A model generated the notes under the pieces. It had not been told where the DNA came from. It did not search any database and saw nothing but the letters and a program-made list of their open reading frames with translations. A program made the translations under genes and the position numbers. A stretch of DNA of 64,000 nucleotides, taken from IMG/VR virus record IMGVR_UViG_3300026538_000054, positions 62,001 through 126,000 of that record; one strand, 5' to 3'. The first letter of the stretch is position 1; each line of letters opens with the position of its first letter. Origin of the DNA: a virus. Below, piece by piece: positions 5,877 through 50,529 of this stretch.

Positions 5877-8800
5877 ATGGCTAACCTACCGCCGCTTCAA
5901 GGCCCCGTCTCCGCGACGCCGTCAGGCCATGGCGCCCCTGTGACCATGCGGGCCTTTGACGATCACGCCGCGACCAGGGAGGCCATTTATTCCAAGACCC
6001 TGAAGGCCCTGGAGAAACTGCCGCCTGTCGAGAACGCGCGACACTCCTTGCGCGTCGAGAGGCCCGCCTACGCAGGCCCCGGCATGGTCTCCCTGGCCGA
6101 GCAAAACAGGGCCATTCTTGAAGGGCGGTCGCTTTTTCGCCGGCTCAAAGGCGACGTGGTCCTCACGGACAAGGCCACGGGCAAGGAGCTCGACCGAAAG
6201 AACGTGACCATCGCCCAGGTGCCCATGTACACCCAACGCGGCACGTTCATCTTTAACGGTTCTGAAAATGGATTGTCACACCAATTGAGGCTGCAGTCAG
6301 GCATCTACGCCCGAATACGCAGCACGGGCGAGGCGGAGTCGCACGTCAATGTACGGCCAGGCAAAGGCCTCTCTCACCGCTACTTCCTGGACCCGGAGAC
6401 CGGCCTCTTCAAGCTCCAGGCTGGACAGGCCTCTGTGCCCCTGGTCACCGTGCTGCGCGCGATGGGTGCGACAGACAGGGAGCTGCAAGAGGCCTGGGGC
6501 CGAGAGCTCTTCTCCGTTAACGCCAAGAAGGACGACCCGCGCTCCATCGAGAAGCTCTACGAGAAGCTGGAGCGACGCCCTGACAAGCAAGCCCCTGCCG
6601 AGGGCAAGCGCCTCAGGGTGGCCGAGCTCATGGCGAAGATGGAGCTTGACCCCGAGGTCACGAAGCGGACGCTGGGCCATCCCCATGCCACCCTGAGCAA
6701 GGAGACCATCCTGGCCGCCACCAGGAAGTTGCTCCGAGTGGCCAGGGACGAAGAAGAGCCGGACGACCGAGATCACCTGGCCTATCAGACCTTCCACGGC
6801 CCGGAGGACATGATCGCGGAGAGGGCTGAGCGGTCATCGCCCCTGTTCCACCAGCTTTTGTGGAAGGCGACGCGCACGGGCAAGCTGGACCATGTTCAGC
6901 CCAACTTCCTGTCCAAACATGTTCAAGGGGCCATCCTTGACTCAGGCATTGGTAACAACCTGGAAGAAATTAACCCATTAGAGTTCCTTAACAACGCGCA
7001 CAAGATAACTCGTATGGGCCGAGGCGGCATCGCCTCAATTGACAGTATACCTTCGTCCAGTAGAGCGGTTCACTCGAGTCACGTCGGTTTCATTGACCTG
7101 GTCTCGACCCCGGAAAGTCAACGTGCCGGCGTAGACACTCGCGCCGGGTTCAAGGCCCTGAAGGGCGACGACGGCCGGCTCTACACGCCGGTACACAACG
7201 CCAGGACTGGCAAGGAAGAGCTCAAAAGCCCGCAGGACCTGGCGGACGCCGTCCTCGCCTTCCCAGGGCAAATGCAAACCGGCAAGAAGCGCGTGACCGC
7301 CCTGGTCAAGGGCAGGGCGACCAGTGTGCCTCGCGAAGAGGTGGATTATGCCCTGCCCCACATGGAGCACGCCTTCACACCTACGTCCAACCTGGTCCCG
7401 CTCAAGGCCATGAGCAAGGGCCAGCGGGTGAGCATGGGTGGTCGGTTCCTGGTTCAGTCCGTGGCGCTCAAGGACGGTGAAGCGCCCCTGGTCCAGGGCC
7501 TTGTTCCCGGCACCAACAAGTCCTTTGAAGAGCTCTACGGACGCCACGTCGGCGCTGTCCATGCCAGAGATGATCAAGGCGGTCGCGTGGTGAAAGTTAC
7601 GCCCGACGGCATCACGGTCAAGTACGACGACGGCAAGACCGAAGAACACGAACTGTACAATCACTTCGTACTGAACAGGAAATCGCTTCTGCACAATACG
7701 CCAGTGGTGCGAGAAGGTGACAGGATTGAAGCGGGCCGTCCGCTGGCGAAGTCCAACTATACCGATGCCCAGGGCCGCGTGGCTGTCGGTAAGAACCTGC
7801 GCACGGCGTACATCGCACATGGTGGAGGTTCTTCCGCGAACTACGAGGATGCCTGGGTCATCAGCGAGTCGGCGGCCAAGAAGTTCACCAGCGACCACGC
7901 CTACCAGCACGCGATCGAGTGGGAAGACAACCACAAGCGCGGCAAGCGCACCTACCAGGCGCTCTTCCCTACGAAGTACGACCGAAAGACGTTGGAGCTC
8001 CTGGACGAAGATGGCGTGATCAAGCCAGGGACCAAGGTTGAGTCCGGTACGCCCCTGGTCCTGGCCGCCAGTCAGAAAGACCCTGATCGCAAGACCGTTC
8101 ACCAGAGTAGAGGCGGTGGCTTCTCAGACGCTTCTCTTGTCTGGGACCACCACGCTCCTGGAGAGGTGGTCAGCGTCGCCAAGACGGACAAGGGCGTCAA
8201 CGTTGTAGTTAGGTCATTTAATACGACTGAGATAGCGGACAAACTTTGTTACGACCCTGAGACGGAGGTGCTGACCAGCCGCGGCTGGGCGCGCGTAGCT
8301 GAGCTAACCACCGCCGACGAGGTCGCCACGTTGGGGCCAGAGGACCGGATCGAGTACCTCCAGCCTGTCGGTATCCACCGCTACCACCACATCGGCCGGA
8401 TGTATCGGCTGGAGACGACGCAGATCGATCTACTGGTCACCGAGAACCATCACCTGTACGCCTGCCGCAGGAATCGGTCTGAGTACTCTCTCCAGACTGC
8501 GTCCGAGCTATTCGGGAAGACGTTTCGGCTGAAACGAGACGGCGTGTGGACTGGCGCCTCGCCGGACTTCGTCAAGATGCCGGACCTCGTTGTTAAGGCT
8601 GGGCAGTTCGGCCACGGTGAGCGCGCCCTGGATGGGCCGAGCTTGCCGACCGACGTGTTTGTCATGCTACTCGGGATGTACCTGTCGGAGGGCTGTACGT
8701 TCAACCAGCCGAGCTACGGGTCGTACGGCATCGATATTACGCAGATCAATCCTGGCGGGCGCGCCAAGCTGTTTCCGGCGCTGGATGCCGCTGGTCTGAA

Positions 8801-11381
8801 GTACAACGCCACGTCGAACGGCGCGCGAATCTATAGCAAGTCGTTGATGGCCTATTTCAACCAGTTTGGGCGCGCCAAGGACAAGTTCATCCCTGAAGAG
8901 GTGTTTTTCTGGGCCACGGAGCACCTCAAGTCTCTTTACTACTGGCTCATGTGGGGCGATGGCTGTGAGGGTGGTACGGGCCACTCTTACTGCACCACGT
9001 CGCCTCGACTGGCCGACGACTTTCAACGGCTCCTGCTCCACATCGGGATGTCAGGCAACATCAAGAGGGTCGAAGCCAGGCGCGGCGTGATCAAGGGCAA
9101 GGAGTACGACTTCGCCCCTCGCTACGACGTTTCTGTCTTCCGGTCGAAAAACAGGCCAGAGATCAATCACGGTCACTGGAAGACCCAAAACGGGCAGAGA
9201 GAGGCCTGGGAGGAGTACTCAGGCGAGGTCTTCTGTCCGCAAATGCCGAAGAACCACGTCATCTATGTCCGCCGAAACGGCAAGCCGGTCTGGTGCGGCA
9301 ACAGCGGGCTTTACGGAGACAAAGGTGTTATATCGGGAATCATGAAAGATGATGAGATGCCTCATGATGAGAATGGCAAACCATTTGAGATGCTAGCTAA
9401 TCCTTTAGGAGTTATATCAAGAATTAACGCTAGCCAGGTGGCAGCGGCTGTCCTGGGCAAGATCGCCCAGAAGACGGGCCAGCCGTACAAGGTGGAGGAC
9501 TTCCCTCACGACAAAGAGGACATCACGGGCTGGGTGCAGCAAGAAGCCAAGAAGCACGGCGTCAAGGACCTGGAGACGGTGATCGATCCTGTGACAGGGA
9601 AGCGCATTCCCAACGTGTTGACAGGCGTTCGCTACTATATGAAACTACACCACTCGGCTGAGGGAAAGGCTTCTGCGAGGGGCCTTGGCGCCTACGACGC
9701 TGAAGGAACGCCTGCGCGAGGCCCTGGCGAGGCGGCTCAGGCCAAGCGACTGGCGCTCATGGAGACGAACGCGCTGCTCAGCCATTCCGCGCTTGACGTC
9801 CTCAAGGACGCCAGATTGGTTCGCGGTAACCAGAACGTCGAGCTCTGGGCGAGCTACATGGGCGGTGACCACCCGTCGACGCCGCCGGTGCCTTTTGTCT
9901 TTCAGAAGTTCGTGAATCAGCTCAAGGCCGCGGGCGTGAACGTGACGCGCAAGGGTGCGCAGACCAGGATCACCGCCCTGACCGACAAGGACATTGATGA
10001 GCTGGCGGGCGACAGGGAGCTGGGAAACGCCGAGACAGTCCACTGGGGCGAGGACATGCGGCCTGTCAAGGGCGGCCTGTTCGACGAGCAACTCACGGGT
10101 GGTCACACGGGCCAGAAGTGGGTGAAATTGGTTCTTGCCGAGCCGATGCTGAACCCGGTGATGGAAGAGCCAGCCCGTCGCCTCCTAGGCCTGACCCAGG
10201 CGCAGCTCGAGAGCGTGATCAAAGGAGAGCGAGAGCTTCAGGGCAAGAAGGGCCCGGAGGCCATCTCGCACGCGCTTGCGTCTATCAACCTGGAGAAGGG
10301 CATCTCGCGCGCCAGGGCGGATATCGCTTCGGGCAGGAAGACCTTGCGAGACGACGCCGTCAAGCGGCTGAGCTACCTGAAAGCGGCGCAGTCTACTGGC
10401 GTTCACCCTGGCGACTGGGTACTGAAGGCCGCCCCTGTTCTTCCTCCTATCTTCAGGCCGGTCTCCGTGATGCAGGGCACGGGCGGCACTCTGATTGCTG
10501 ACGCCAACGTGCTCTATCGCGACTTGTTCGAGTCGAACCAGGTCCTCAAGGGCCTGAAGGGGCAGGTTGACGACACCGGTGCCGAGATGTTGTCGGTCTA
10601 CAACGCGCTCAAGGCCGTTCAGGGGCTGGGTGATCCCGTCAACGCCAAGACGCAAGAGAAGAAGGTCAAGGGCCTTCTGGACACGGTCTTCGGCTCTTCC
10701 AGCAAGCACTCCGTGGTGCAGTCGAGGCTCATTGGTACGCCTGTCAACAACGTGGGTAGGGGCGTGGTGATCCCTGACGCCGATCTGGACATGGATGAGG
10801 TAGGCATACCGGAGGCCCACGCCTGGAAGGTCTACGAGCCTTCGCTCATCAGGTCGCTTGTCCGTCGCGGCATGGGCCGTGTTGACGCCCTGGCCCACGT
10901 CAGGGACAAGAGCGATGTCGCTAGGCAGGCCCTTCTGGCCGAGACGGAGAAGGGGCCGATTCTGATGACCAGGGCCCCTGTGCTTCATCGCTTTGGCATC
11001 TTGGCCTTGCTGCCGCGGCTGGTAAAGGGTGACGCTGTTAAGGTTAATCCTTACATAGTGGCAGGCCAGGGCATGGACTTTGACGGTGATGCTGTCAACT
11101 ATCATCTCCCTTTAACGCAAGAAGCTAAGCAAGAGGCTATGGAGAAGATGCTGCCCAGCAAGAGCCTTCTCGCCGTGAGCGACCTACACACACCGATGTT
11201 CAACGTCCGCCAGGAGTTCCAGGCCGGTCTCTACCGCATGACCCACGCCGAGAACAAAGAGAAGCGAGCGCGCACCTTCGCGACCATGAAGGACCTTCAC
11301 AAGGCCTACCTGCGCGGCGAGATCGAGGCGGACGATCCGGTGACGGTCATGGACCATGGCGGCCAGAGCGGTGCGAAGTAG
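5877..11381 (+). CDS. RNA polymerase beta + beta-prime N-terminal fusion, with intein
   Basis: The 1834-aa precursor becomes about 1482 aa after splicing. The beta part runs to about residue 1380. It contains the rifampicin-pocket-like region (HVQGAILDSGIGNNLEEINP, about 340-375), SANYEDAW near 653 and SGLYGDKGVISGI from 1143, matching the beta motif AGRHGNKGVIS. The beta-prime part begins near GGLFDEQLTGGHTG (about 1399), continues with LPPIFRPV (about 1522) and holds the catalytic Mg motif GMDFDGD with D1734, D1736 and D1738. It stops about 95 residues later, so the bridge helix and trigger loop must come from the gene at 19595. The fold motifs are clear. I infer a phage transcription enzyme acting in the host, possibly virion-packaged. 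Confidence 0.92.
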   Translation: MANLPPLQGPVSATPSGHGAPVTMRAFDDHAATREAIYSKTLKALEKLPPVENARHSLRVERPAYAGPGMVSLAEQNRAILEGRSLFRRLKGDVVLTDKATGKELDRKNVTIAQVPMYTQRGTFIFNGSENGLSHQLRLQSGIYARIRSTGEAESHVNVRPGKGLSHRYFLDPETGLFKLQAGQASVPLVTVLRAMGATDRELQEAWGRELFSVNAKKDDPRSIEKLYEKLERRPDKQAPAEGKRLRVAELMAKMELDPEVTKRTLGHPHATLSKETILAATRKLLRVARDEEEPDDRDHLAYQTFHGPEDMIAERAERSSPLFHQLLWKATRTGKLDHVQPNFLSKHVQGAILDSGIGNNLEEINPLEFLNNAHKITRMGRGGIASIDSIPSSSRAVHSSHVGFIDLVSTPESQRAGVDTRAGFKALKGDDGRLYTPVHNARTGKEELKSPQDLADAVLAFPGQMQTGKKRVTALVKGRATSVPREEVDYALPHMEHAFTPTSNLVPLKAMSKGQRVSMGGRFLVQSVALKDGEAPLVQGLVPGTNKSFEELYGRHVGAVHARDDQGGRVVKVTPDGITVKYDDGKTEEHELYNHFVLNRKSLLHNTPVVREGDRIEAGRPLAKSNYTDAQGRVAVGKNLRTAYIAHGGGSSANYEDAWVISESAAKKFTSDHAYQHAIEWEDNHKRGKRTYQALFPTKYDRKTLELLDEDGVIKPGTKVESGTPLVLAASQKDPDRKTVHQSRGGGFSDASLVWDHHAPGEVVSVAKTDKGVNVVVRSFNTTEIADKLCYDPETEVLTSRGWARVAELTTADEVATLGPEDRIEYLQPVGIHRYHHIGRMYRLETTQIDLLVTENHHLYACRRNRSEYSLQTASELFGKTFRLKRDGVWTGASPDFVKMPDLVVKAGQFGHGERALDGPSLPTDVFVMLLGMYLSEGCTFNQPSYGSYGIDITQINPGGRAKLFPALDAAGLKYNATSNGARIYSKSLMAYFNQFGRAKDKFIPEEVFFWATEHLKSLYYWLMWGDGCEGGTGHSYCTTSPRLADDFQRLLLHIGMSGNIKRVEARRGVIKGKEYDFAPRYDVSVFRSKNRPEINHGHWKTQNGQREAWEEYSGEVFCPQMPKNHVIYVRRNGKPVWCGNSGLYGDKGVISGIMKDDEMPHDENGKPFEMLANPLGVISRINASQVAAAVLGKIAQKTGQPYKVEDFPHDKEDITGWVQQEAKKHGVKDLETVIDPVTGKRIPNVLTGVRYYMKLHHSAEGKASARGLGAYDAEGTPARGPGEAAQAKRLALMETNALLSHSALDVLKDARLVRGNQNVELWASYMGGDHPSTPPVPFVFQKFVNQLKAAGVNVTRKGAQTRITALTDKDIDELAGDRELGNAETVHWGEDMRPVKGGLFDEQLTGGHTGQKWVKLVLAEPMLNPVMEEPARRLLGLTQAQLESVIKGERELQGKKGPEAISHALASINLEKGISRARADIASGRKTLRDDAVKRLSYLKAAQSTGVHPGDWVLKAAPVLPPIFRPVSVMQGTGGTLIADANVLYRDLFESNQVLKGLKGQVDDTGAEMLSVYNALKAVQGLGDPVNAKTQEKKVKGLLDTVFGSSSKHSVVQSRLIGTPVNNVGRGVVIPDADLDMDEVGIPEAHAWKVYEPSLIRSLVRRGMGRVDALAHVRDKSDVARQALLAETEKGPILMTRAPVLHRFGILALLPRLVKGDAVKVNPYIVAGQGMDFDGDAVNYHLPLTQEAKQEAMEKMLPSKSLLAVSDLHTPMFNVRQEFQAGLYRMTHAENKEKRARTFATMKDLHKAYLRGEIEADDPVTVMDHGGQSGAK
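8247..9302 (+). mobile_element. Intein 1 (LAGLIDADG endonuclease type) in RNAP beta
   Basis: Residues 791-1142 (352 aa). The N-terminal splice block begins CYDPETEVLTS; block B is VTENHHLYAC. LAGLIDADG-type motifs LLGMYLSEG and YYWLMWGDG indicate a homing endonuclease. The C-terminal block is NGKPVWCGN followed by Ser. The penultimate residue is Gly instead of His, as in many phage inteins. Insertion is just before SGLYGDKG, a highly conserved active-centre loop of the beta subunit. Confidence 0.93.
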
Positions 11382-19594: not shown

Positions 19595-22417
19595 ATGCCC
19601 CTTAACAGCACCGCCGGCCAGGCCCTCGTGAACGCCGTCCTCCCTGAGGAACTGCGCAACCACGAGCGCGCCCTGGACAAGAAGGGCATGGCCTCGCTCA
19701 TGAAGGAGGTGGCCAGGAAGCACCCTGAGCAGTACCGAGAGGTCCTCTTTCGCCTGGGGAAGCTAGGCCATCTCACCGCCTACCACACAGGGTCTCTCTC
19801 CTTTGGCCTGGAACACATGCGCACCGCGGTCAGCGCCAGAGACATGAAGAGAAAGCTGCGCCAGGAGATCGATCAGATCTATGACCACCGTTCTCTATCT
19901 CAAAAAGAGAAAGAACAGAAGATCGTTGAGCTGGTGAGCTCCTATCAAGCTCCTCTCGAGAAGGCCGTCTACGACGAGTCCCTTGCCGAGGGAAACCCTC
20001 TTGCTCTGCAAGTTCTCTCAGGGGCCAGGGGCAACAAGACCAACCTGCGCTCCCTGAGAGGCGCTGATCTTCTCTACGTAGACCACAAGGACCAGCCCGT
20101 CCCCATCCCTATCTTGCGATCCTACTCCGAGGGCCTGACCCCGGCTGACTACTATGCCGGCAGTTTCGGAGCGCGAAAGGGCGTCATTGACGTCAAGCAG
20201 GGCGTGGCTGATTCGGGCTTCGCCTCCAAGTTGCTCGTCCAGATGTCTCATCGCCTGGTGACCACCTCTCTGGATCATCCCGAGCCACCCTCTCGTATCA
20301 GGGGCCTGCCTGTTGACCTTGACGACCCTGACAACGAAGGTGCTCTCCTCGCCCATGACATAGGGCCGTTCAAGAGAAACACCGTCCTCACCCCTGACGT
20401 GCTTCACCGGCTCAAGCAAGAAGGCCACAAACACCTCCTTGTGAGATCGCCTACCGTCGGCGGCCCGCCTGACGGAGGAGTGTACGCCCGTGACGTTGGT
20501 ATCAGAGAGAAGGGCGTGATATCTCCCGTAGGAGATTTCGTCGGCATCGCCGCCGCACAGGCTCTCTGCCTAGCTGAAGGCACGTTGGTCACCCTGGCTG
20601 ATCTCACTTTCAAGCGCATCGAAGAGGTCGCTCCGGGAGACCTTATTCTGGCGGCCAACAGCAAGGGTGAGACCGCTTCGGCCAAGGTGAACAGACGTTT
20701 CCTTAACGGCCCCCGTGCGTGTTTACGTTACTTCTGGTCGAATCAGGAGCATTCTGTTCTTGCCACGAGCGAACACAAAGTGCTCAGGCCTGACAAGACC
20801 GTCAGGCCCTTCGACCAGACCTCCGTGGTCTTGCTTCATACGCCTCAAGGGCCTACTCCAGCCGCCCTGGATGAGCCTCTTCATCAAGAGCCAATCATCC
20901 TGCCCACCTATGACCTGGAGATCGACCACCCCGAGCATCTCTACGTGCTCAAGGGCGGCTTGATCGTGGCCAACTCTGAGCCTCTTACCCAGAGCACGCT
21001 GGGCAGCAAGCACTCGGGGGGCGTAGCTGGGGCCAAGAAATCAGGGCCTACGGGCTTCAAATTGCTCTCTTGCTTGGGAGAAGGCACGTTGGTGCGCATG
21101 GCCGACGTGCCTTCCAAGGAGATTGAGAAGATCAAGCCGGGTGACAGGGTCATCGGTGCGAACTTGGAGGGGGGATGGTTCCCCGTCCAGGTCAAGAACG
21201 TCTTTGACAACGGCCAGCGCCCTTGTCGCACGTTCACCTTTGAGTCGATGCTTGGTGAGGAGAGCCTCACTGCCACGGACGACCATCTCGTACTGGCTCA
21301 GGCGCCCTGCTACAAGATCGACAAGACCCTGGCTGACAAGGGCCTGAAACGGTTTGATGAGTGGGAAGGCGGCCTCAAGGTCTCGCTGGGAGAGATACGC
21401 ACGGCGCATAACTTGCCTCACCCGTTGGCGCCTGTGGGCTACAGGCCTGTGAAGGCCGCCAAGGAGCCTGGTTCTCCAGGCGTTCGTGTCGAGCTCCTCT
21501 ACGCCACCCCTGAGGTGCTTCTCCCTACCTACGACCTGGAGGTGGATCACCCTGACCACCTCTTCGTCCTGGCCAACGGCCTGGTGGTGAGCAACTCGCA
21601 GATTCAGGTTCCCAAGGCCTTCCCATCTGGAGCTTCTCACTCTCAAGAAGATGGCCGCGTGCAAGCCGTCTTCCCTGCGCCCCAGGGCGGTAACTACGTG
21701 CAGGTCAACGGCCACAAGCACTACGTGGCCCCTGGCTTCGACGTCCTGGTCAAGCCAGGCGATGAGGTTGAATCTGGCGATGTTCTCAGCGAGGGAGTAC
21801 CGAACCCTGCGGAAGTGGTGGCTCACAAGGGCGTTGGAGAAGGCAGGGCCTACTTCGTCCAGGCGTTCAGAGACTCGTTCAAGCGCTCAGGCCTGCAGGC
21901 GCATCGCCGGAACATCGAGCTGGTCGCCAGGGGCCTGATTGACCATGTCAGGCTTACCGAGGAGCATGGGCACTACTCCCCGGATGACGTAGTGCAGTAC
22001 TCCCGTCTGGAGAGGGACTGGCAGCCAAGAGACGGTGCCAAGGAAAAGGCCCCCAACGAGGCCATGGGGCACTACCTGGAAGCGCCGGTGCTGCACTACT
22101 CCATCGGGACGAAGATCAGGCCCAGCGTGGTGAAGCGCCTGTCTCAGTTCGGCGTCAAGAGCGTGTTGGTGCATCAGCAACCACCGCCTTTTGAGCCTGA
22201 AATGGTCAGGGGGATGGAGAACCTGACCCATGACCCCGACTGGATGACGAGATTTCTGGGGCCTTATGTGAAAAAGAACTTCCTGAAGGGCGTTGCCAGG
22301 GGTGACATCTCCGACGAGGCCGGAAGCAGCTACGTCCCTTCTCTGGCCAGGGGAGCGGACTTCAACCGTCTGCCGCCTGTCAAGGGCTTTGACCCCAGGT
22401 CTCTGGGCCAGCTCTAA
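19595..22417 (+). CDS. RNA polymerase beta-prime C-terminal subunit with two mini-inteins
   Basis: The start is ATG 19595 (MPLNSTAGQ). The 940-aa precursor becomes about 629 aa after loss of both inteins. LQVLSGARGNKTNLRSLRG (about 130-150) matches the beta-prime SGARGSxxxIxQLxG motif. The bridge helix is about 178-220 (LTPADYYAGSFGARKGVIDV). GDFVGIAAAQAL (about 313-324) plus SEPLTQSTLGSKHSGG (from 461) reconstruct the trigger-loop region. The C-terminal part includes RRNIELVARGLIDHVR, matching HIEVIVRQM. It complements the split beta-prime in the gene at 5877. ATG-proximal GTGAGAAC is a poor binding site. Confidence 0.92.
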   Translation: MPLNSTAGQALVNAVLPEELRNHERALDKKGMASLMKEVARKHPEQYREVLFRLGKLGHLTAYHTGSLSFGLEHMRTAVSARDMKRKLRQEIDQIYDHRSLSQKEKEQKIVELVSSYQAPLEKAVYDESLAEGNPLALQVLSGARGNKTNLRSLRGADLLYVDHKDQPVPIPILRSYSEGLTPADYYAGSFGARKGVIDVKQGVADSGFASKLLVQMSHRLVTTSLDHPEPPSRIRGLPVDLDDPDNEGALLAHDIGPFKRNTVLTPDVLHRLKQEGHKHLLVRSPTVGGPPDGGVYARDVGIREKGVISPVGDFVGIAAAQALCLAEGTLVTLADLTFKRIEEVAPGDLILAANSKGETASAKVNRRFLNGPRACLRYFWSNQEHSVLATSEHKVLRPDKTVRPFDQTSVVLLHTPQGPTPAALDEPLHQEPIILPTYDLEIDHPEHLYVLKGGLIVANSEPLTQSTLGSKHSGGVAGAKKSGPTGFKLLSCLGEGTLVRMADVPSKEIEKIKPGDRVIGANLEGGWFPVQVKNVFDNGQRPCRTFTFESMLGEESLTATDDHLVLAQAPCYKIDKTLADKGLKRFDEWEGGLKVSLGEIRTAHNLPHPLAPVGYRPVKAAKEPGSPGVRVELLYATPEVLLPTYDLEVDHPDHLFVLANGLVVSNSQIQVPKAFPSGASHSQEDGRVQAVFPAPQGGNYVQVNGHKHYVAPGFDVLVKPGDEVESGDVLSEGVPNPAEVVAHKGVGEGRAYFVQAFRDSFKRSGLQAHRRNIELVARGLIDHVRLTEEHGHYSPDDVVQYSRLERDWQPRDGAKEKAPNEAMGHYLEAPVLHYSIGTKIRPSVVKRLSQFGVKSVLVHQQPPPFEPEMVRGMENLTHDPDWMTRFLGPYVKKNFLKGVARGDISDEAGSSYVPSLARGADFNRLPPVKGFDPRSLGQL
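20567..20974 (+). mobile_element. Mini-intein 2 in RNAP beta-prime
   Basis: Residues 325-460 (136 aa). It starts CLAEGTLVTLADL and has ATSEHKVL (block B) and YDLEIDHPEHLYVLKGG (block F). It ends LIVAN before Ser. No endonuclease domain fits in this length. The penultimate residue is Ala, not His. The insertion point is between GIAAAQAL and SEPLTQSTL, the start of the trigger-loop segment. Confidence 0.9.
21071..21595 (+). mobile_element. Mini-intein 3 in RNAP beta-prime
   Basis: Residues 493-667 (175 aa). It starts CLGEGTLVRMADV and has ATDDHLVLAQ and YDLEVDHPDHLFVLANG. It ends LVVSN before Ser. It is clearly related to intein 2 (same CLxEGTLV start and HPxHLxVL block), so the two are probably paralogs. 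No endonuclease. Only 32 extein residues separate it from intein 2. Confidence 0.9.
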
Positions 22418-24967: not shown

Positions 24968-25241
24968 CATCGTCGCTACCTGGTACAGGCTCAGGGCCCA
25001 GGGATGGCGTCGCCATCCCGTCGCTTTGGATAACCTCAGAAGCGCGATGTTGGCTCTCGAAGGGCCTGACCTGCCTGAGGAGCTTATCGCGTGGCAGGCG
25101 GCCGTTGAGGCGGAGCGGCAGATGACCGCTGAGCTGGACGCGGACAACATGGTCCCCATGTTGTCCGCGTTTCGCTTCGTCAGGGCCAACCAGGCCCTTA
25201 TCGAGGCCTGTGCAGAAGGAGTAACTGTTGATGGCGACTGA
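24939..25241 (+). CDS. Hypothetical protein, 100 aa
   Basis: ATG 24939 follows GAGGAAACGC. The product is helical (KDKTAADIVATWYRLRAQGW, ELIAWQAAVEAERQMTAELD) without cysteine pairs or membrane segments. It overlaps both neighbours. Not recognised. Confidence 0.55.
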   Translation: MKLKDKTAADIVATWYRLRAQGWRRHPVALDNLRSAMLALEGPDLPEELIAWQAAVEAERQMTAELDADNMVPMLSAFRFVRANQALIEACAEGVTVDGD

Positions 25242-25551
25242 AAAGCAGAAGAAACTGGCGGCCTCTTTTCCCTACGCCGTTCCACAATGCTTCGTCCGGT
25301 TCCTCGACAACAACCACGAAGGCATCGCGGTCTACACCAAACGTGGCGGCGCGGTCAGCTTCACGCGCCATCTCGGCACGCCCATGAACGCTAAGCTCTG
25401 GGAGGACCTGGTGGAGCGGCTGGGCTGCCTGGGGCTGCGTATCTACGGCCCGGGCTTCGACGGTGCGTGGACCATGGGCTTTTTCGGGCCGGGCGCGTTC
25501 ATATACCTGGACGAGAACTTCCTCGTCCGGGACATCGAGTTTCAACCGTGA
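25231..25551 (+). CDS. Hypothetical protein, 106 aa
   Basis: ATG 25231 is preceded by AGAAGGAG. The product has AASFPYAVPQCFVRFLDNNH and an aromatic/Gly-rich C-terminal part (YGPGFDGAWTMGFFGPGAF), probably beta-rich. Family unknown. Confidence 0.55.
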   Translation: MATEKQKKLAASFPYAVPQCFVRFLDNNHEGIAVYTKRGGAVSFTRHLGTPMNAKLWEDLVERLGCLGLRIYGPGFDGAWTMGFFGPGAFIYLDENFLVRDIEFQP

Positions 25552-25571
25552 GGTGAGCCATACAAGACGAG

Positions 25572-26060
25572 GTGCTTCAGAAGGCCCTTGAGACCATCAG
25601 GGCCGTCGGCGTCAATCTGCCCGACCCTGCTCCCGGTCTCTGTACCGCCGTCGTGCGACCCTACTACCTGACGGCCGACCAGAACTGGCTCTGCATCGCG
25701 ACCCAGATACACGGGCAGGTCGTCTTCGTGCTCAATTTGTTTTCCGGAAAAGCACACGAGAATGAGCAATGCGTGGCCGATTGGCGGCCTGGTGATGCCC
25801 TGGATGACCAACTGCTTGAGCGATTGCGGCTCTTCGTCCGCGTTGACCATGAGGCCCTTCTCGCCCAGGCCAGGGCCCTGCTTCAGGGCTGGGTGGACAA
25901 ACAAGCCCATGACCGCTGCTGGTACTACCCTGATGTCTTCCGTGAGTTGGCTGCCTTGCTAGGCGTGAAGACGACCGTCCCTGGAGGCTTGCCGCCCAGG
26001 CCTGAGTTCGAGGACGGCTGCAGGAGATACCAGGACGAGGAGTACAACCGCACGGTTTGA
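25572..26060 (+). CDS. Hypothetical protein, 162 aa, unusual start
   Basis: GTG 25572 is the first standard start, but GAGGTGAG lies 3 nt before an in-frame ATA at 25560, which looks like a former or alternative start (IQDEVLQKALETI). The product has VRPYYLTADQNWLCIATQ and GQVVFVLNLFSGKA; the latter is encoded across the palindrome TTTTCCGGAAAA. Family unknown. Confidence 0.55.
   Translation: MLQKALETIRAVGVNLPDPAPGLCTAVVRPYYLTADQNWLCIATQIHGQVVFVLNLFSGKAHENEQCVADWRPGDALDDQLLERLRLFVRVDHEALLAQARALLQGWVDKQAHDRCWYYPDVFRELAALLGVKTTVPGGLPPRPEFEDGCRRYQDEEYNRTV
25741..25752. promoter_or_regulatory. Palindrome TTTTCCGGAAAA, copy 2
   Basis: Exact copy inside the coding sequence at 25572 (codons for LFSGK), using A/T-ending codons that are rare in this genome. 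Confidence 0.35.
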
Positions 26061-26072
26061 CAGCTCACCTGT

Positions 26073-26108
26073 TTACCATTACGCTGGAGAGCTCCAGCGT
26101 AATGGTAA
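26073..26108. repeat. 17-bp perfect inverted repeat
   Basis: 26073-26089 and 26092-26108 are perfect reverse complements separated by two bases. No T-run follows on either strand, so a protein-binding site or RNA processing hairpin is as likely as termination. Confidence 0.6.
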
Positions 26109-26119
26109 GGTTCTCAGCA

Positions 26120-26146
26120 AGGCCTTCTCGGCGGCCTCGATGCCGT
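26120..26146 (+). ncRNA. Pseudoknot element 9 (weak)
   Basis: AGGCC (26120-26124) pairs with GGCCT (26133-26137), the same compensated stem 1 as element 8. Stem 2 is only CGGC with GCCG. A further degenerate copy follows at 26150-26180. Confidence 0.4.
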
Positions 26147-26358
26147 GAAATGCCGTCGGCGCTGCGCTAAATGCCGCAACTCGACCTTGCACACTCGCTC
26201 GCGGGCCAGTAGCATGATGGTGCTCGGAGTGCGTGTTGAGCAGGACAGAGGAAGAAGCCTAGTAGTGTAAGCCGTTCCCCGCGCGGACAGAGCGCCGCCA
26301 ATAGTGGGCCGCGTCGAACAGCTACCCGACGACCTGACCGACGAGCAGAACGAGCAAA

Positions 26359-26388
26359 AGCCCTGTGCAGCGGGCTGGATGCTGCAAC
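26359..26388 (+). ncRNA. Pseudoknot element 11
   Basis: AGCCC (26359-26363) pairs with GGGCT (26372-26376), and TGCAGC (26366-26371) pairs with GCTGCA (26381-26386). First strong copy in the array. Confidence 0.6.
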
Positions 26389-26430
26389 TCTAGCAGTTGG
26401 GGCCAGGACAGGCCTTGCTACACGTACTGA

Positions 26431-26460
26431 AGCCCTATACAGCGGGCTGATAGCTGTAGC
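26431..26460 (+). ncRNA. Pseudoknot element 12, covarying stem 2
   Basis: AGCCC (26431-26435) pairs with GGGCT (26444-26448). Stem 2 is TACAGC (26438-26443) with GCTGTA (26453-26458): relative to element 11 a G-C pair has become A-T on both sides. Confidence 0.6.
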
Positions 26461-26498
26461 ACGGCGAGCGCGTCGACGCCGAGTGGTCAACGCACTGA

Positions 26499-26528
26499 AG
26501 CCCTCTGCGGCGGGCTGAATGCTGCAAC
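26499..26528 (+). ncRNA. Pseudoknot element 13
   Basis: AGCCC (26499-26503) pairs with GGGCT (26512-26516), and TGCGGC pairs with GCTGCA through one G-U pair. Confidence 0.6.
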
Positions 26529-26562
26529 TGGAAGTAGTTGTTCGACAAGGTGGTCGCACCGA

Positions 26563-26592
26563 AGCCCTCTATAGTGGGCTGAAAGCTGCAGC
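26563..26592 (+). ncRNA. Pseudoknot element 14 (partly decayed)
   Basis: Stem 1 AGCCC (26563-26567) with GGGCT (26576-26580) is intact. Stem 2 ATAGT with GCTGC has two G-U pairs and one mismatch. Confidence 0.45.
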
Positions 26593-26626
26593 AGGAGACC
26601 GAGAGCTTGGCGGCCCGGCCCATACC

Positions 26627-26881
26627 ATGTCTACACGCACCATCACCGTCCACGATCGATGTACAAAATGCAACCGCACGCTCCACTTCATATCCGAAGG
26701 CGAGCGAGGCGTGTGCGGTCCTTGCTGGGTGGCCTCTCTCGCGCCCGAGACCAAGAAGGCCATAAATCGCGTGATCGCCAGCGCCTTCAACGGCAGCGGC
26801 GAAGAAGAGAAGAGCCAGGCCGTTGATGGGGCCATGAAGGCCCTCCAGCAAGAAGACAAGAAGCCCTCTGCAGCGGGCTGA
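26627..26881 (+). CDS. Small zinc-ribbon protein, 84 aa
   Basis: ATG 26627 (MSTRTITVHDRCTKC). CTKC and CGPC (residues about 12-33) form a zinc ribbon with HFISEGERGV between them. The rest is helical and charged. The stop codon lies within pseudoknot element 15, so the last residues (KKPSAAG) are encoded by the element. No strong binding site upstream. Function unknown. Confidence 0.55.
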   Translation: MSTRTITVHDRCTKCNRTLHFISEGERGVCGPCWVASLAPETKKAINRVIASAFNGSGEEEKSQAVDGAMKALQQEDKKPSAAG

Positions 26882-26891
26882 AAGCTGCAAC
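26862..26891 (+). ncRNA. Pseudoknot element 15, overlapping a stop codon
   Basis: AGCCC (26862-26866) pairs with GGGCT (26875-26879), and TGCAGC (26869-26874) pairs with GCTGCA (26884-26889). The TGA of the preceding gene is within the element. Confidence 0.6.
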
Positions 26892-26919
26892 TGGAAATAC
26901 TCAAGCATGGGAGTGCCAA

Positions 26920-26949
26920 AGCCCTCTGTAGCGGGCTAAAAGCTGCGAC
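26920..26949 (+). ncRNA. Pseudoknot element 16
   Basis: AGCCC (26920-26924) pairs with GGGCT (26933-26937), and TGTAGC pairs with GCTGCG using G-U pairs. It ends 14 nt before ATG 26964. Confidence 0.55.
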
Positions 26950-26963
26950 TGGCGACCGGAGCG

Positions 26964-27155
26964 ATGACGCGCATGTCCGTCGAGGACGACAAGTTCTGGA
27001 ACGAGGTAGTAGGCGATCTCCGCAAGAAGCGAGGCTTTGGCCCGCTCACGCCAGAAGAGGCCCAGGCGGCCTATGACGCCGCGCCGGAAGAGCCTCTCTC
27101 CGAGGACAGGATCAAGGAGATCGTCAAATACGCCGTTTCAGGCGGCCAGGGCTAA
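26964..27155 (+). CDS. Hypothetical protein, 63 aa
   Basis: GGAGCG lies before ATG 26964; ATG 26973 is an alternative. The product is acidic and helical (VEDDKFWNEVVGDLRKKRGF, EDRIKEIVKYAVSGG). Its stop is inside a 13-bp inverted repeat (27129-27141 with 27161-27173). Confidence 0.5.
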   Translation: MTRMSVEDDKFWNEVVGDLRKKRGFGPLTPEEAQAAYDAAPEEPLSEDRIKEIVKYAVSGGQG

Positions 27156-27230
27156 CCCGACTGAAACGGCGTAGGTAGCACCTCGTCAGGCCTAGAAGCG
27201 CCTACTGGAAAACCAGTAGGCGCTTCTTTT
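27129..27230 (+). terminator. Inverted repeat followed by strong terminator
   Basis: 27129-27141 pairs with 27161-27173 (13 bp). A second, perfect 15-bp hairpin (27194-27208 with 27213-27227, loop AAAA) is followed by TTT. The second hairpin is a classic rho-independent terminator, and its A-run allows some action on the other strand. Confidence 0.85.
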
Positions 27231-27249
27231 GTCTGTATCATCCCGATAA

Positions 27250-27284
27250 GCCAGGTGGCCAGGGCGGAGCAGAGGCCACCTGGC
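27250..27284. repeat. 11-bp inverted repeat before TIGR02996 gene
   Basis: GCCAGGTGGCC (27250-27260) and GGCCACCTGGC (27274-27284) are reverse complements around a 13-nt loop, 33 nt upstream of ATG 27317. Possible operator or leader hairpin. Confidence 0.45.
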
Positions 27285-27316
27285 ACCGTACACGCCTTCA
27301 ACGAGAAGTAGGCTTG

Positions 27317-28030
27317 ATGCCCGTAGCAGTTCAATCCCTGGGCGACGTTCTTATTCAAGAGGTGCTTGAGCACCCCGAGGACGACGTCCCCCGCCTGATC
27401 TACGCCGACTGGCTCGCCGAGAACGATCAGCCCGTCAGGGCCGAGTTCATCCAGCTCCAGTGCCGGCTGGCCAAAGAGCAGCCCGACTACGCCCTTGACA
27501 CTGGAACTTCACCCAGGGCCTACACGTCCTCGGGCGACCCTCGTATCAGGCGGGCCTACGCGCTCTTCCAGGAACTGGCCTTTCCTACCGTCAGCAAGGG
27601 CCCGATTACCTTGACTTCCTTTCAATGGACCGCGGCCACCTGGCGACGAGGCTTCGTGGAGGGCCTCTCCTTGAGCTGCTCGGAATTCACGAGGCTAGCG
27701 CGGCTAGTGTTCAAGCTGCACCCGGTCACGCGCGTGCAGCTCAAAGACAGGCAACCGACCTGGTGCCCGGGATGGAACGGTTACTGGAGTTGGCGCGTTA
27801 CGGGTGACGAGGTCCCGTTTTTTAGCGACGGCTTCTTACTGCCTCACGAAATCTTCAATCTCCTCGGCCCTGGGCACAGGGAGTCGCAACACGGTCAGTG
27901 GCGGCACTTTGACAGCAAGGAGAGGGCCGTACAAGAGCTCTCTCAGGCCTGTGTCGCCTTTGGCATCACCAAGAGGAAGGAGGGCCTCTCTGAGGCCCTG
28001 TCGGCAGAAAGCGAGAAAGATACCTCATGA
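27317..28030 (+). CDS. TIGR02996 domain protein
   Basis: The 237-aa product begins with the Gemmata-specific TIGR02996 motif (LGDVLIQEVLEHPEDDVPRL, IYADWLAENDQPVRAEFIQLQ). It continues with a C-terminal domain shared with the gene at 15722 (RRGFVEGLSLSCSEFTRLARL). The domain occurs in large paralogous sets in Gemmataceae, and its function is not known. GAGAAGTAG precedes the start. It heads a six-gene run with 4-bp overlaps ending in a paralog-family gene. Confidence 0.8.
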   Translation: MPVAVQSLGDVLIQEVLEHPEDDVPRLIYADWLAENDQPVRAEFIQLQCRLAKEQPDYALDTGTSPRAYTSSGDPRIRRAYALFQELAFPTVSKGPITLTSFQWTAATWRRGFVEGLSLSCSEFTRLARLVFKLHPVTRVQLKDRQPTWCPGWNGYWSWRVTGDEVPFFSDGFLLPHEIFNLLGPGHRESQHGQWRHFDSKERAVQELSQACVAFGITKRKEGLSEALSAESEKDTS

Positions 28031-28332
28031 CCGATTACGAACAGTGGCGCTTCCGGACCACCTTGCTTAGCGATCTGGCCACCGTGATCGCCGGCAGCGA
28101 ACGTGACTACTCTCCCGAGGAGATCGTCGCCAGGGCCAAGGTCATCACCGAGGCCGTGATCAGAGAGGCGGGCAAGGCCCCGGAGAGACAGGAAAAGCCC
28201 GTCTCTCCGGGGCCTGCCCCCGACGACTACGCGGCCCTGGTGTTTTCGGGCGTCGCCAAGAAACTCGGCGACACGCTGCATGAGTCGGCCGCTTGTTTGA
28301 ACGAAGCGGCCAGAAAGGCCGGGCCGTCGTGA
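28027..28332 (+). CDS. Hypothetical protein, 101 aa
   Basis: A small helical protein (DYEQWRFRTTLLSDLATVIA, CLNEAARKAGPS), coupled to both neighbours by ATGA/GTGA overlaps. Not recognised. Confidence 0.5.
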   Translation: MTDYEQWRFRTTLLSDLATVIAGSERDYSPEEIVARAKVITEAVIREAGKAPERQEKPVSPGPAPDDYAALVFSGVAKKLGDTLHESAACLNEAARKAGPS

Positions 28333-28895
28333 ACGAACACCAACGGCTGGAGAGAGACCTTGAGTCTCTCCAGCGTGATCACCTTCTGGTCCTCGCCGAC
28401 GCCGCTCTTGAAGCCGGCGAGGAGCTTCTTGCCGTTGGTTACCGTCGCCTGGCCGAGTGCGGGGCCTGGCCCTTGCAGGTGCTTGAAGACGGCCTGTCTC
28501 GCTGGGAGTGGTGGACGGAGAAGGAAGAAGGCCGCTCCTTTGAGTGCTCCTTGCCGCACCGGTGGATCAAGCGCGTCCGCCAGCTCACCAGGAGCCCTCA
28601 TGGCCAGACGTGCAGGGCCCCTACCAGACAGGCAGCGCTGCGGGCGGCCGCCCAGGCCTGGGGCGAGTTGGCCTTGTCCGTTCACCTGGCTGGGCCGGGC
28701 ACGTCTCTGGGCGATTGGCGCAAGCCCGGGAAGAAGGAAGAAGAAGCGCCAGCTCCCACGGCCTTGCTTGAGGAAATTCAGCAGGAGATGGAGCGCATGC
28801 AGTCGATCAAGGAGCACGTTGACCACATGCGGGCCGCCAGCCCAGCCGGTTGGCGGTCCTGGCGCACGTTCAACCAAGGAGATCAAGGATCATGA
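28329..28895 (+). CDS. Degenerate TIGR02996-like protein
   Basis: GTG 28329 overlaps the previous stop; the earlier frame start lacks a binding site. Residues about 19-50 (HLLVLADAALEAGEELLAVG, YRRLAECGAWP) resemble RLVLADWLEExGDPxRAExYR without the Trp. The C-terminal third is a charged helix. Probably a relative of the TIGR02996 set. Confidence 0.55.
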   Translation: MNEHQRLERDLESLQRDHLLVLADAALEAGEELLAVGYRRLAECGAWPLQVLEDGLSRWEWWTEKEEGRSFECSLPHRWIKRVRQLTRSPHGQTCRAPTRQAALRAAAQAWGELALSVHLAGPGTSLGDWRKPGKKEEEAPAPTALLEEIQQEMERMQSIKEHVDHMRAASPAGWRSWRTFNQGDQGS

Positions 28896-49177: not shown

Positions 49178-50529
49178 CCGATCGCTTCGACTTCCTGAAG
49201 AAGGGCTACGAGGAGGCCCTGGAAGAGATCGCGCTTGGCGCCGAGCTGGTGCGAGCCTTGCGTCACGGCCCCTCGCTCGAGAAGAAAGCAGACGGCGAAG
49301 AGAGCACCTCTCAGCTGGGAGATCTCGCCAACCAGGCCCGCTCCTACAACGCCGTGAACTACGGCCTCCTGGGCGCTGGCGCCGGGGCGGGCGTCGGCCT
49401 CCTGCGAGGCCTCATGAGCAAGAAGAAGCGCCAGCTCCTGAGAGACGCCCTCACGGGCGCTCTGGCCGGCGGGGCCATAGGGGCTGGCGCCGGCGGCCTG
49501 ACGGACGCGTTGGGCCAGAGCAAGAAAGACGACAAGCCTGCCACTCCCCAGCCGCCAGGGACCAGGCCGTTAAGCGGCCCTCCGGAGGCTGGCCGTATGC
49601 AGAGGCTAACCACGGACTTTCTCCACCGAAGCGGCAGTAACCCTGAGGACGTGCAGCAAGCCGTACGGCGTCACACGGAGGCCTGGCACGACGCCAGCGC
49701 CAGGGCCACGGCCCTGGAGAGATCTGGTCGGCAGGACGAAGCCAGGGCCCTGAGAGAGCAGGCCGGCGCTGCTTACACGACCGGCCTTGCGTCCGTAAGC
49801 GCCGCCGTGGATCGCAACCGCTCTGACACCAACATGTTTGGGCGGGCCTACAGAGCGTTTACGTCACCAGGGCTTGGGTACGTCGAGAACGCGCAAGAGG
49901 GGCTGGCGGAACTGGACCCAGGGCTCAAACACGCTCTGCCATGGACGGACGCCTTCGAGCGATCTCACCAGACGCACGCGGCCAGGGGCGGCTACGGCCT
50001 TGCAGGCGCCCTCGCTGCGGCCTCTGGTGTCGGCGCTTATGGCTTGATGCAACGTCGGCAGAACACCTCTCTCCTGCGAGAGGCCCTGCAGGGTCAGCTC
50101 CGGACGCAAGGCCCTGTCAAGGACCAGCTGAGCGCCCTGGGCGCGGCCGACCCCACGCTTCAGCCTTTGCTCACCGGCCTGGCGGGCCACACCGGACAGA
50201 TAGATCGCTCGTTGCTGGGTGGCCGCGTCGGCTCGACAGCCCTCCCGAACGGGCCGACCCTGTCAAGACCACAGACCAGCGCCCTGTTAGGCGTGGCCAG
50301 GACCGCGAACAATCAACTGGGCCGACCCGTGGGGCCGAGCCGCAAGGCGACAACTGCCGTCGTCGGTGCCGGGGCTACCCTGCCTCTTCTCGGGTACGGT
50401 CTCTACCGGCGGTTTACCTCTCCTGTCAGCAACTGGAACACGGGCCAGCCGGCGGTGGCAGACCAGGCGTCAGTTACGAACCGGATCGTCGCTGAAGAGC
50501 GCGCGAGAAGAGGGGAGACGTCGCCGTGA
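49174..50529 (+). CDS. Glycine-zipper membrane protein in head module (ejection-protein candidate)
   Basis: The 451-aa product has a helical start (FLKKGYEEALEEIALG). A glycine-rich hydrophobic hairpin lies at about 62-112 (YGLLGAGAGAGVGLLRGLMS, GALAGGAIGAGAGGLTDAL). Further hydrophobic segments lie near 270-290 (YGLAGALAAASGVGAYGLM) and 390-410 (AVVGAGATLPLLGYGLYRR). The arrangement resembles proteins at 2326, 4098 and 4890. Insertion into the host membrane during genome delivery is a reasonable guess. Confidence 0.6.
   Translation: MTDRFDFLKKGYEEALEEIALGAELVRALRHGPSLEKKADGEESTSQLGDLANQARSYNAVNYGLLGAGAGAGVGLLRGLMSKKKRQLLRDALTGALAGGAIGAGAGGLTDALGQSKKDDKPATPQPPGTRPLSGPPEAGRMQRLTTDFLHRSGSNPEDVQQAVRRHTEAWHDASARATALERSGRQDEARALREQAGAAYTTGLASVSAAVDRNRSDTNMFGRAYRAFTSPGLGYVENAQEGLAELDPGLKHALPWTDAFERSHQTHAARGGYGLAGALAAASGVGAYGLMQRRQNTSLLREALQGQLRTQGPVKDQLSALGAADPTLQPLLTGLAGHTGQIDRSLLGGRVGSTALPNGPTLSRPQTSALLGVARTANNQLGRPVGPSRKATTAVVGAGATLPLLGYGLYRRFTSPVSNWNTGQPAVADQASVTNRIVAEERARRGETSP

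Follow-up and report, generated by a model that had tools for sequence, protein, structure and literature searches.

The window, the 64,000-nucleotide stretch of viral DNA analysed here, corresponds to positions 40146-104145 (minus strand) of contig C51 within a 5.39 Mb assembly, and C51, which is 199,122 bp long and bounded on either side by a 100-bp repeat, appears to be a complete, circular phage genome. The window encodes an RNA polymerase in two genes. A fusion of β with the N-terminal part of β′, which extends past the catalytic DFDGD motif and carries intein 1, was assigned from its translation to 5877..11381 (plus strand; Pfam Rpb2_6 1e-39, Rpb1_2 9e-19), and 8 kb past this fusion a separate gene at 19595..22417 (plus strand; Pfam Rpb1_5 4e-11, rpoC_TIGR 5.6e-44) encodes the β′ C-part, starting upstream of the bridge helix and comprising the bridge helix, the trigger loop and the C-terminal domains. 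The same split of β′ between the DFDGD domain and the bridge helix, with the N-part fused to β, is seen in the phage of L001, the nearest relative found (193,694 bp, 127-bp end repeat). When two inteins (inteins 2 and 3) are removed in silico from the β′ C-part, a protein of 629 aa remains, which matches β′ in the PDB at 1e-34; its bridge helix (GARKG...DSG) aligns to Thermus β′ 1053-1111, and the bridge-helix and trigger-loop motifs are conserved in the Thermus alignment, including the catalytic His. In an annotated phage collection only distant β′ relatives were found, all below 60% identity and the first-ranked ones near 29%, and an extein search of genome contigs returned no relative.

Two mini-inteins flanking a trigger-loop segment

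The initial annotation had described a 136-aa and a 175-aa intein separated by 32 extein residues in this gene, and the positions and lengths that it gave prove correct. Intein 2 (20567..20974, plus strand; C...VAN/S, with the slash marking the splice junction) lies at profile site 334, between residues 1229 and 1230 of Thermus β′, and intein 3 (21071..21595, plus strand; C...VVSN/S) lies downstream at profile site 364, after FKLLS. Both start with Cys1, carry a TxxH motif in block B as located by alignment (T67-S-E-H70 at 20765..20776 and T69-D-D-H72 at 21275..21286, both plus strand), contain a YDLE(V/I)...H(L)(Y/F)VL block, and end in Asn (Asn136 and Asn175) followed by Ser+1; their C-terminal splicing blocks are near-identical (TYDLEIDHPEHLYVLKGGLIVAN in intein 2 versus TYDLEVDHPDHLFVLANGLVVSN in intein 3). 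The penultimate residue is Ala in intein 2 and Ser in intein 3 in place of His, and a homing endonuclease is absent from both (136 and 175 aa).

That these segments are Hint domains is borne out at the level of the whole protein, of the profile and of the predicted fold. Each insert alone remains below the gathering cut-off of Pfam Hint (E 0.011 and 4.5e-5), while the whole β′ C-part protein exceeds it and also exceeds the cut-off of TIGR01443 intein_Cterm. Among PDB entries, a five-row family profile retrieved the Mtu RecA mini-intein (5e-8), and AlphaFold2 models (pLDDT 84.4 for intein 2 and 80.9 for intein 3) matched solved inteins in Foldseek at 8.5e-8 and 2.3e-7, with a probability of 1.00 in both cases. 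By sequence, excision of the two inserts restores a contiguous β′, collinear both with bacterial β′ and with relatives that have no intein. L004, L005 and many other relatives are uninterrupted over both junctions, L005 reading AAQALSEKLTQGQLSSKHSGGVAGADKAVSGFKLIDQFVQVPK across the positions where the window is interrupted, and since these relatives are collinear and the sites are empty in most relatives overall, the inserts are not conserved β′ insertions. Judged by their residues and predicted fold, both inserts are intact mini-inteins of class 1, and they presumably splice.

The 32-residue extein between them (20975..21070, plus strand; SEPLTQSTLGSKH...GFKLLS), the first codon of which encodes the Ser+1 nucleophile of intein 2, had been identified as trigger loop, correctly so: once spliced, it forms the N-terminal half of this element and aligns without gaps to Thermus β′ 1216-1250. 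The alignment places the equivalent of Thermus His1242, which we take to be the equivalent of E. coli His936, at 21011..21013 (plus strand), and a Gly at the position of Thermus Arg1239; all Thermus residue numbers were derived from ungapped alignments. Both junctions thus flank an element that catalysis requires, and it is reasonable to infer that the precursor has no activity until inteins 2 and 3 have both spliced.

One intein family in the bridge helix and trigger loop of phage β′

Viral contigs were searched with an intein profile and an extein profile, which yielded approximately 80 distinct β′ C-parts, the extein sample consisting of the 80 top-ranking contigs from a single scan and the contigs reached via their inteins. 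Inteins were mapped by profile alignment allowing jumps of at least 90 residues, from a candidate start (Cys preferred) to an Asn followed by Ser, Thr or Cys, and each site was named after the profile column of its +1 residue, with the Thermus boundary given where aligned. In this sample, mapping gave 35 inteins, spread over nine sites and 23 distinct proteins, and every one of them has Cys1, a terminal Asn and Ser or Thr at +1. All mapped sites fall within columns 203-216 (bridge helix) or 334-364 (trigger loop) of the 633-column profile, with none elsewhere, and intein sites fall in conserved stretches (permutation p 0.001). The bridge-helix sites are 203 (Thermus 1081/1082), 204 (1082/1083), 207 (one case, which may be site 208 shifted by one residue), 208 (1086/1087) and 216 (1094/1095); those of the trigger loop are 334 (1229/1230, the site of intein 2), 343 (1238/1239), 347 (1242/1243) and 364, the site of intein 3, which is occupied only in the window phage.

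Two or three inteins are present in 10 of the 23 proteins, namely L128 (sites 204, 334 and 343), L001 (208, 216 and 343), L143 (208 and 334), L082 (216 and 347), L083 and L094 (both 208 and 343), L089 (334 and 343), L090 (208 and 347), L101 (207 and 343) and the window phage (334 and 364). L001, where the two sites used in the window are empty, has one intein within the trigger loop and, in the bridge helix, two more separated by a spacer of 8 residues; this spacer and those of 9 residues in L128 and L089 are the shortest between co-resident inteins. By length the family comprises 19 members of 373-418 aa and 16 of 126-178 aa. The site 343 intein of L001, the full-length member scanned, matches LAGLIDADG_3 at 3e-16, and the remaining full-length members were put in the endonuclease class by size.

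The 35 inteins form one side of a branch with support 91/81, for which 12 other inteins of the window phage and L001's phage served as the outgroup, and the family HMM gives 101-147 bits on four tested members versus at most 30.5 bits on the 12 outgroup inteins. In the family-profile and extein searches, members with full-length similarity were found in phage β′ only. A bacterial or archaeal home of the family was considered and is ruled against by a search of 299 host-phylum genomes, in which the window's own copy was the sole match.

A penultimate His is common in inteins but not essential, and other inteins splice without it. The initial annotation had noticed its absence from all three polymerase inteins of the window, and this holds, with Gly, Ala and Ser in inteins 1, 2 and 3, respectively, and intein 1 belonging to a separate family. 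As the penultimate residue is Ser in 32 of the 35 family members, the missing His is the family norm and not peculiar to the window polymerase, and Ala or Ser at this position is no evidence of decay. Inteins 2 and 3 had also been called clearly related, which they are, with 46% identity in the splicing core; this is no closer than an average pair of the family (46.9%).

Intein 1 (8247..9302, plus strand; C...WCGN/S) is a 352-aa intein in β at ADKL/SGLYGDKG with a LAGLIDADG endonuclease (PF14528 1.7e-5, over the cut-off), to which the HMM of the β′ family assigns only -1.5 bits. The β inteins of the window phage (8247-9302) and of L001 (2516-2956) are homologous, with 30% identity overall and 48% at the C-terminus, and occupy different β sites, as is the case in the β′ family. 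A further intein at 7052-8623 of L001 sits right behind the catalytic DFDGD of β′ (GMDFDGD/QQIGIV...VILSN/TSNYYVP), with an apparent Gln start and not Cys or Ser. By inspection, the window phage has approximately six inteins and L001's phage (G001, 193,694 bp) approximately 12, six of the latter in RNA polymerase and two each in DNA polymerase (136579-142254), ribonucleotide reductase (159524-163870) and an unnamed protein (25236-28709). In the window phage, an unnamed phage protein (window 50526-53042) contains a 376-aa LAGLIDADG-type intein (CVLDPLTPVL...MVSHN/C), and its homologue in L001's phage has two inteins. Elsewhere in C51, an AAA+ ATPase (L026, 5269-7566, minus strand) carries a 147-aa mini-intein inside Walker A (VPG/C...NHN/TGKS), and the terminase large subunit (L032, 187291-190557) carries a 477-aa Ala1-type intein, the middle of which resembles out-of-frame sequence and is possibly a decayed endonuclease.

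Spread of the family and origin of the window pair

On intein trees of 112 columns, in which many branches are weak, the inteins cluster by site (15 changes versus 23.8 when shuffled, matched by none of 300 shuffles), whereas no clustering by phage is seen (29 changes versus 30.1, 75 of 300). On the extein tree the number of changes equals the number of occupants at sites 208 (5/5), 216 (5/5), 334 (5/5), 343 (8/8) and 347 (5/5), as is expected at random, while the site 203 inteins follow the extein tree (two changes), a pattern that inheritance fits as well as homing. L194, with an intein at 347, and L173, with one at 334, have relatives that are 87 and 82% identical, respectively, and lack that intein, and L091 (site 343) and L104 (site 203) are 75% identical yet occupied at different sites. 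For a common origin of all site 334 inteins, the AU test gave p 0.31. Kinship by site together with scattered host occupancy is the usual mark of homing and hence points to it.

The residues at the insertion sites suggest that more than the intein itself is transferred. Ser, Thr or Cys is found at the uninvaded +1 position in 3% (site 203), 9% (204), 14% (208) and 1% (364) of relatives, whereas all 35 invaded alleles have Ser or Thr, so the Ser codon probably travels with the intein. Likewise, the Ser+1 codon of intein 3 (21596..21598, plus strand), at a position where 80 of 81 uninvaded relatives have Ala or Gln, probably arrived together with the intein, and after such an arrival the Ser would probably stay in the mature polymerase.

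The initial annotation had left the pair as either a post-translational timing switch or a stable pair of parasites. A switch, by which slow or conditional splicing of both inteins would yield active polymerase only late or under permissive conditions, would draw on the probable inactivity of the precursor, on the persistence of 16 of the 35 family members as minis without an endonuclease, and on the conditional splicing documented in one of two Mycobacterium smegmatis DnaB inteins (PMC6195587). However, in a sample of 81 distinct exteins whose composition biases occupancy frequencies, site 334 is occupied in five and site 364 in one, the two are combined only in the window phage, and close relatives are intein-free; this leaves a conserved timing switch unsupported, and no sensor residue pattern specific to inteins 2 and 3 was found. 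We regard the switch as unlikely, and it is the parasite half of the alternative that stands, with endonuclease-bearing kin at adjoining sites, scattered occupancy and kinship by site.

The near-identity of the two C-terminal splicing blocks would be compatible with a reaction of the N-terminal half of intein 2 with the C-terminal half of intein 3, which would delete the 32 trigger-loop residues and give a slow polymerase variant. Selection against such cross-splicing was sought as a lower identity of co-resident inteins, of which there is no trace, as these are as alike as random pairs (49 versus 47%), and nothing in the sequences forbids the reaction. However, no sequence feature speaks in its favour, a complete intein 2 can fold before intein 3 is synthesised, and several phages tolerate spacers of 8-9 residues, which would be costly were skipping common, so that this outcome appears very improbable.

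Inteins 2 and 3 pair on the intein tree, as a local duplication within the β′ gene in either direction would predict, with weak support (66/49); but both lie on long branches, which this pairing joins, their identity is that of an average family pair, DNA-level similarity between them does not extend beyond 14 bp, and there is no overall clustering by phage. The nearest extein to that of the window phage in the sample is 60% identical. We consider a duplication doubtful, if less so than a switch.

Inteins 2 and 3 are thus very probably self-excising remnants of a mobile family that spread by homing, as mini forms locked in the catalytic motifs of β′. In the proposed mechanism, a single mobile family would have become specialised for two elements, bridge helix and trigger loop, in the RNA polymerases of this phage group, and its LAGLIDADG-bearing members would home between phages during mixed infections, occasionally establishing themselves at an adjacent site and bringing along the Ser+1 codon needed there. 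Upon decay of the endonuclease the mini-intein would be locked in, because an imprecise deletion would destroy the catalytic motif. The window pair would represent two such remnants that came to lie 32 residues apart, and both would excise from the β′ C-part, presumably during or soon after folding, to rejoin a normal trigger loop. More tentatively, with somewhat less confidence than doubt, the family may have made at least eight switches among nine adjacent sites of a single gene, apparently without ever settling in another gene. If so, short-range ectopic homing would combine relaxed endonuclease specificity with co-conversion of Ser+1, and the catalytic centre of RNA polymerase would be an intein refuge in which Ser 'scars' are left at active-centre positions of the mature enzyme.

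Relation to known intein systems

A literature search, which had most subscription journals outside its reach, returned no paper on a phage RNA polymerase whose bridge helix or trigger loop contains inteins, and no report of a single-family intein cluster on the catalytic centre of RNA polymerase. Multi-site intein clusters as such are already known from haloarchaeal MCM, so what is apparently unreported is the single-family cluster at this catalytic centre: one family at nine sites in two short catalytic motifs, with up to three members at once, in the most conserved moving parts of the polymerase. The β′ proteins, which range from empty to triply occupied and carry both minis and full-length inteins, form a natural series in which intein site change can be studied, and in which one can ask by what means adjacent inteins escape cross-splicing and whether an essential enzyme permanently retains residue changes at the insertion sites.

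The closest parallel is that of the haloarchaeal mcm gene, in which inteins are often gained and lost at four neighbouring sites (MCM-a to MCM-d) without indications of co-homing, and for MCM-d of which a Ser codon has been reported to travel with the intein (PMC10643990). Both systems combine minis with full-length inteins at neighbouring sites of an essential gene, and they share gain and loss, co-residence and a flanking residue co-converted to Ser (probably so in β′), but the haloarchaeal case comprises four helicase sites and the phage case nine RNA polymerase sites of one family, down to one residue apart. M. smegmatis DnaB likewise has two inteins in one protein (DnaBi1 and DnaBi2), one of them a mini-intein within a catalytic motif; these are dissimilar in sequence and splicing class, and the conditional, stress-responsive splicing of one was measured (PMC6195587). 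The inteins of eukaryotic RPB2, RPA2 and RPC2 also occupy several non-allelic RNA polymerase sites in conserved motifs near the active site, but in the second-largest subunit, and the non-allelic ones are not close kin, as is usual for inteins at separate sites of one gene (PMC1635734). The M. tuberculosis RecA mini-intein (PDB 3ifj, 5i0a), the top match by sequence and a near-top match by fold, shares class 1 and a CLAEGT start but has the penultimate His and resides in another host protein. Delta and Zeta crAss-like phages are similarly large, carry unusually many self-splicing elements and have RNA polymerase genes that are hit; the 'unprecedented density' described for Zeta phages amounts to up to three inteins per genome, alongside as many as 14 introns (PMC7886860), in contrast to approximately six inteins in the window phage and approximately 12 in that of L001.
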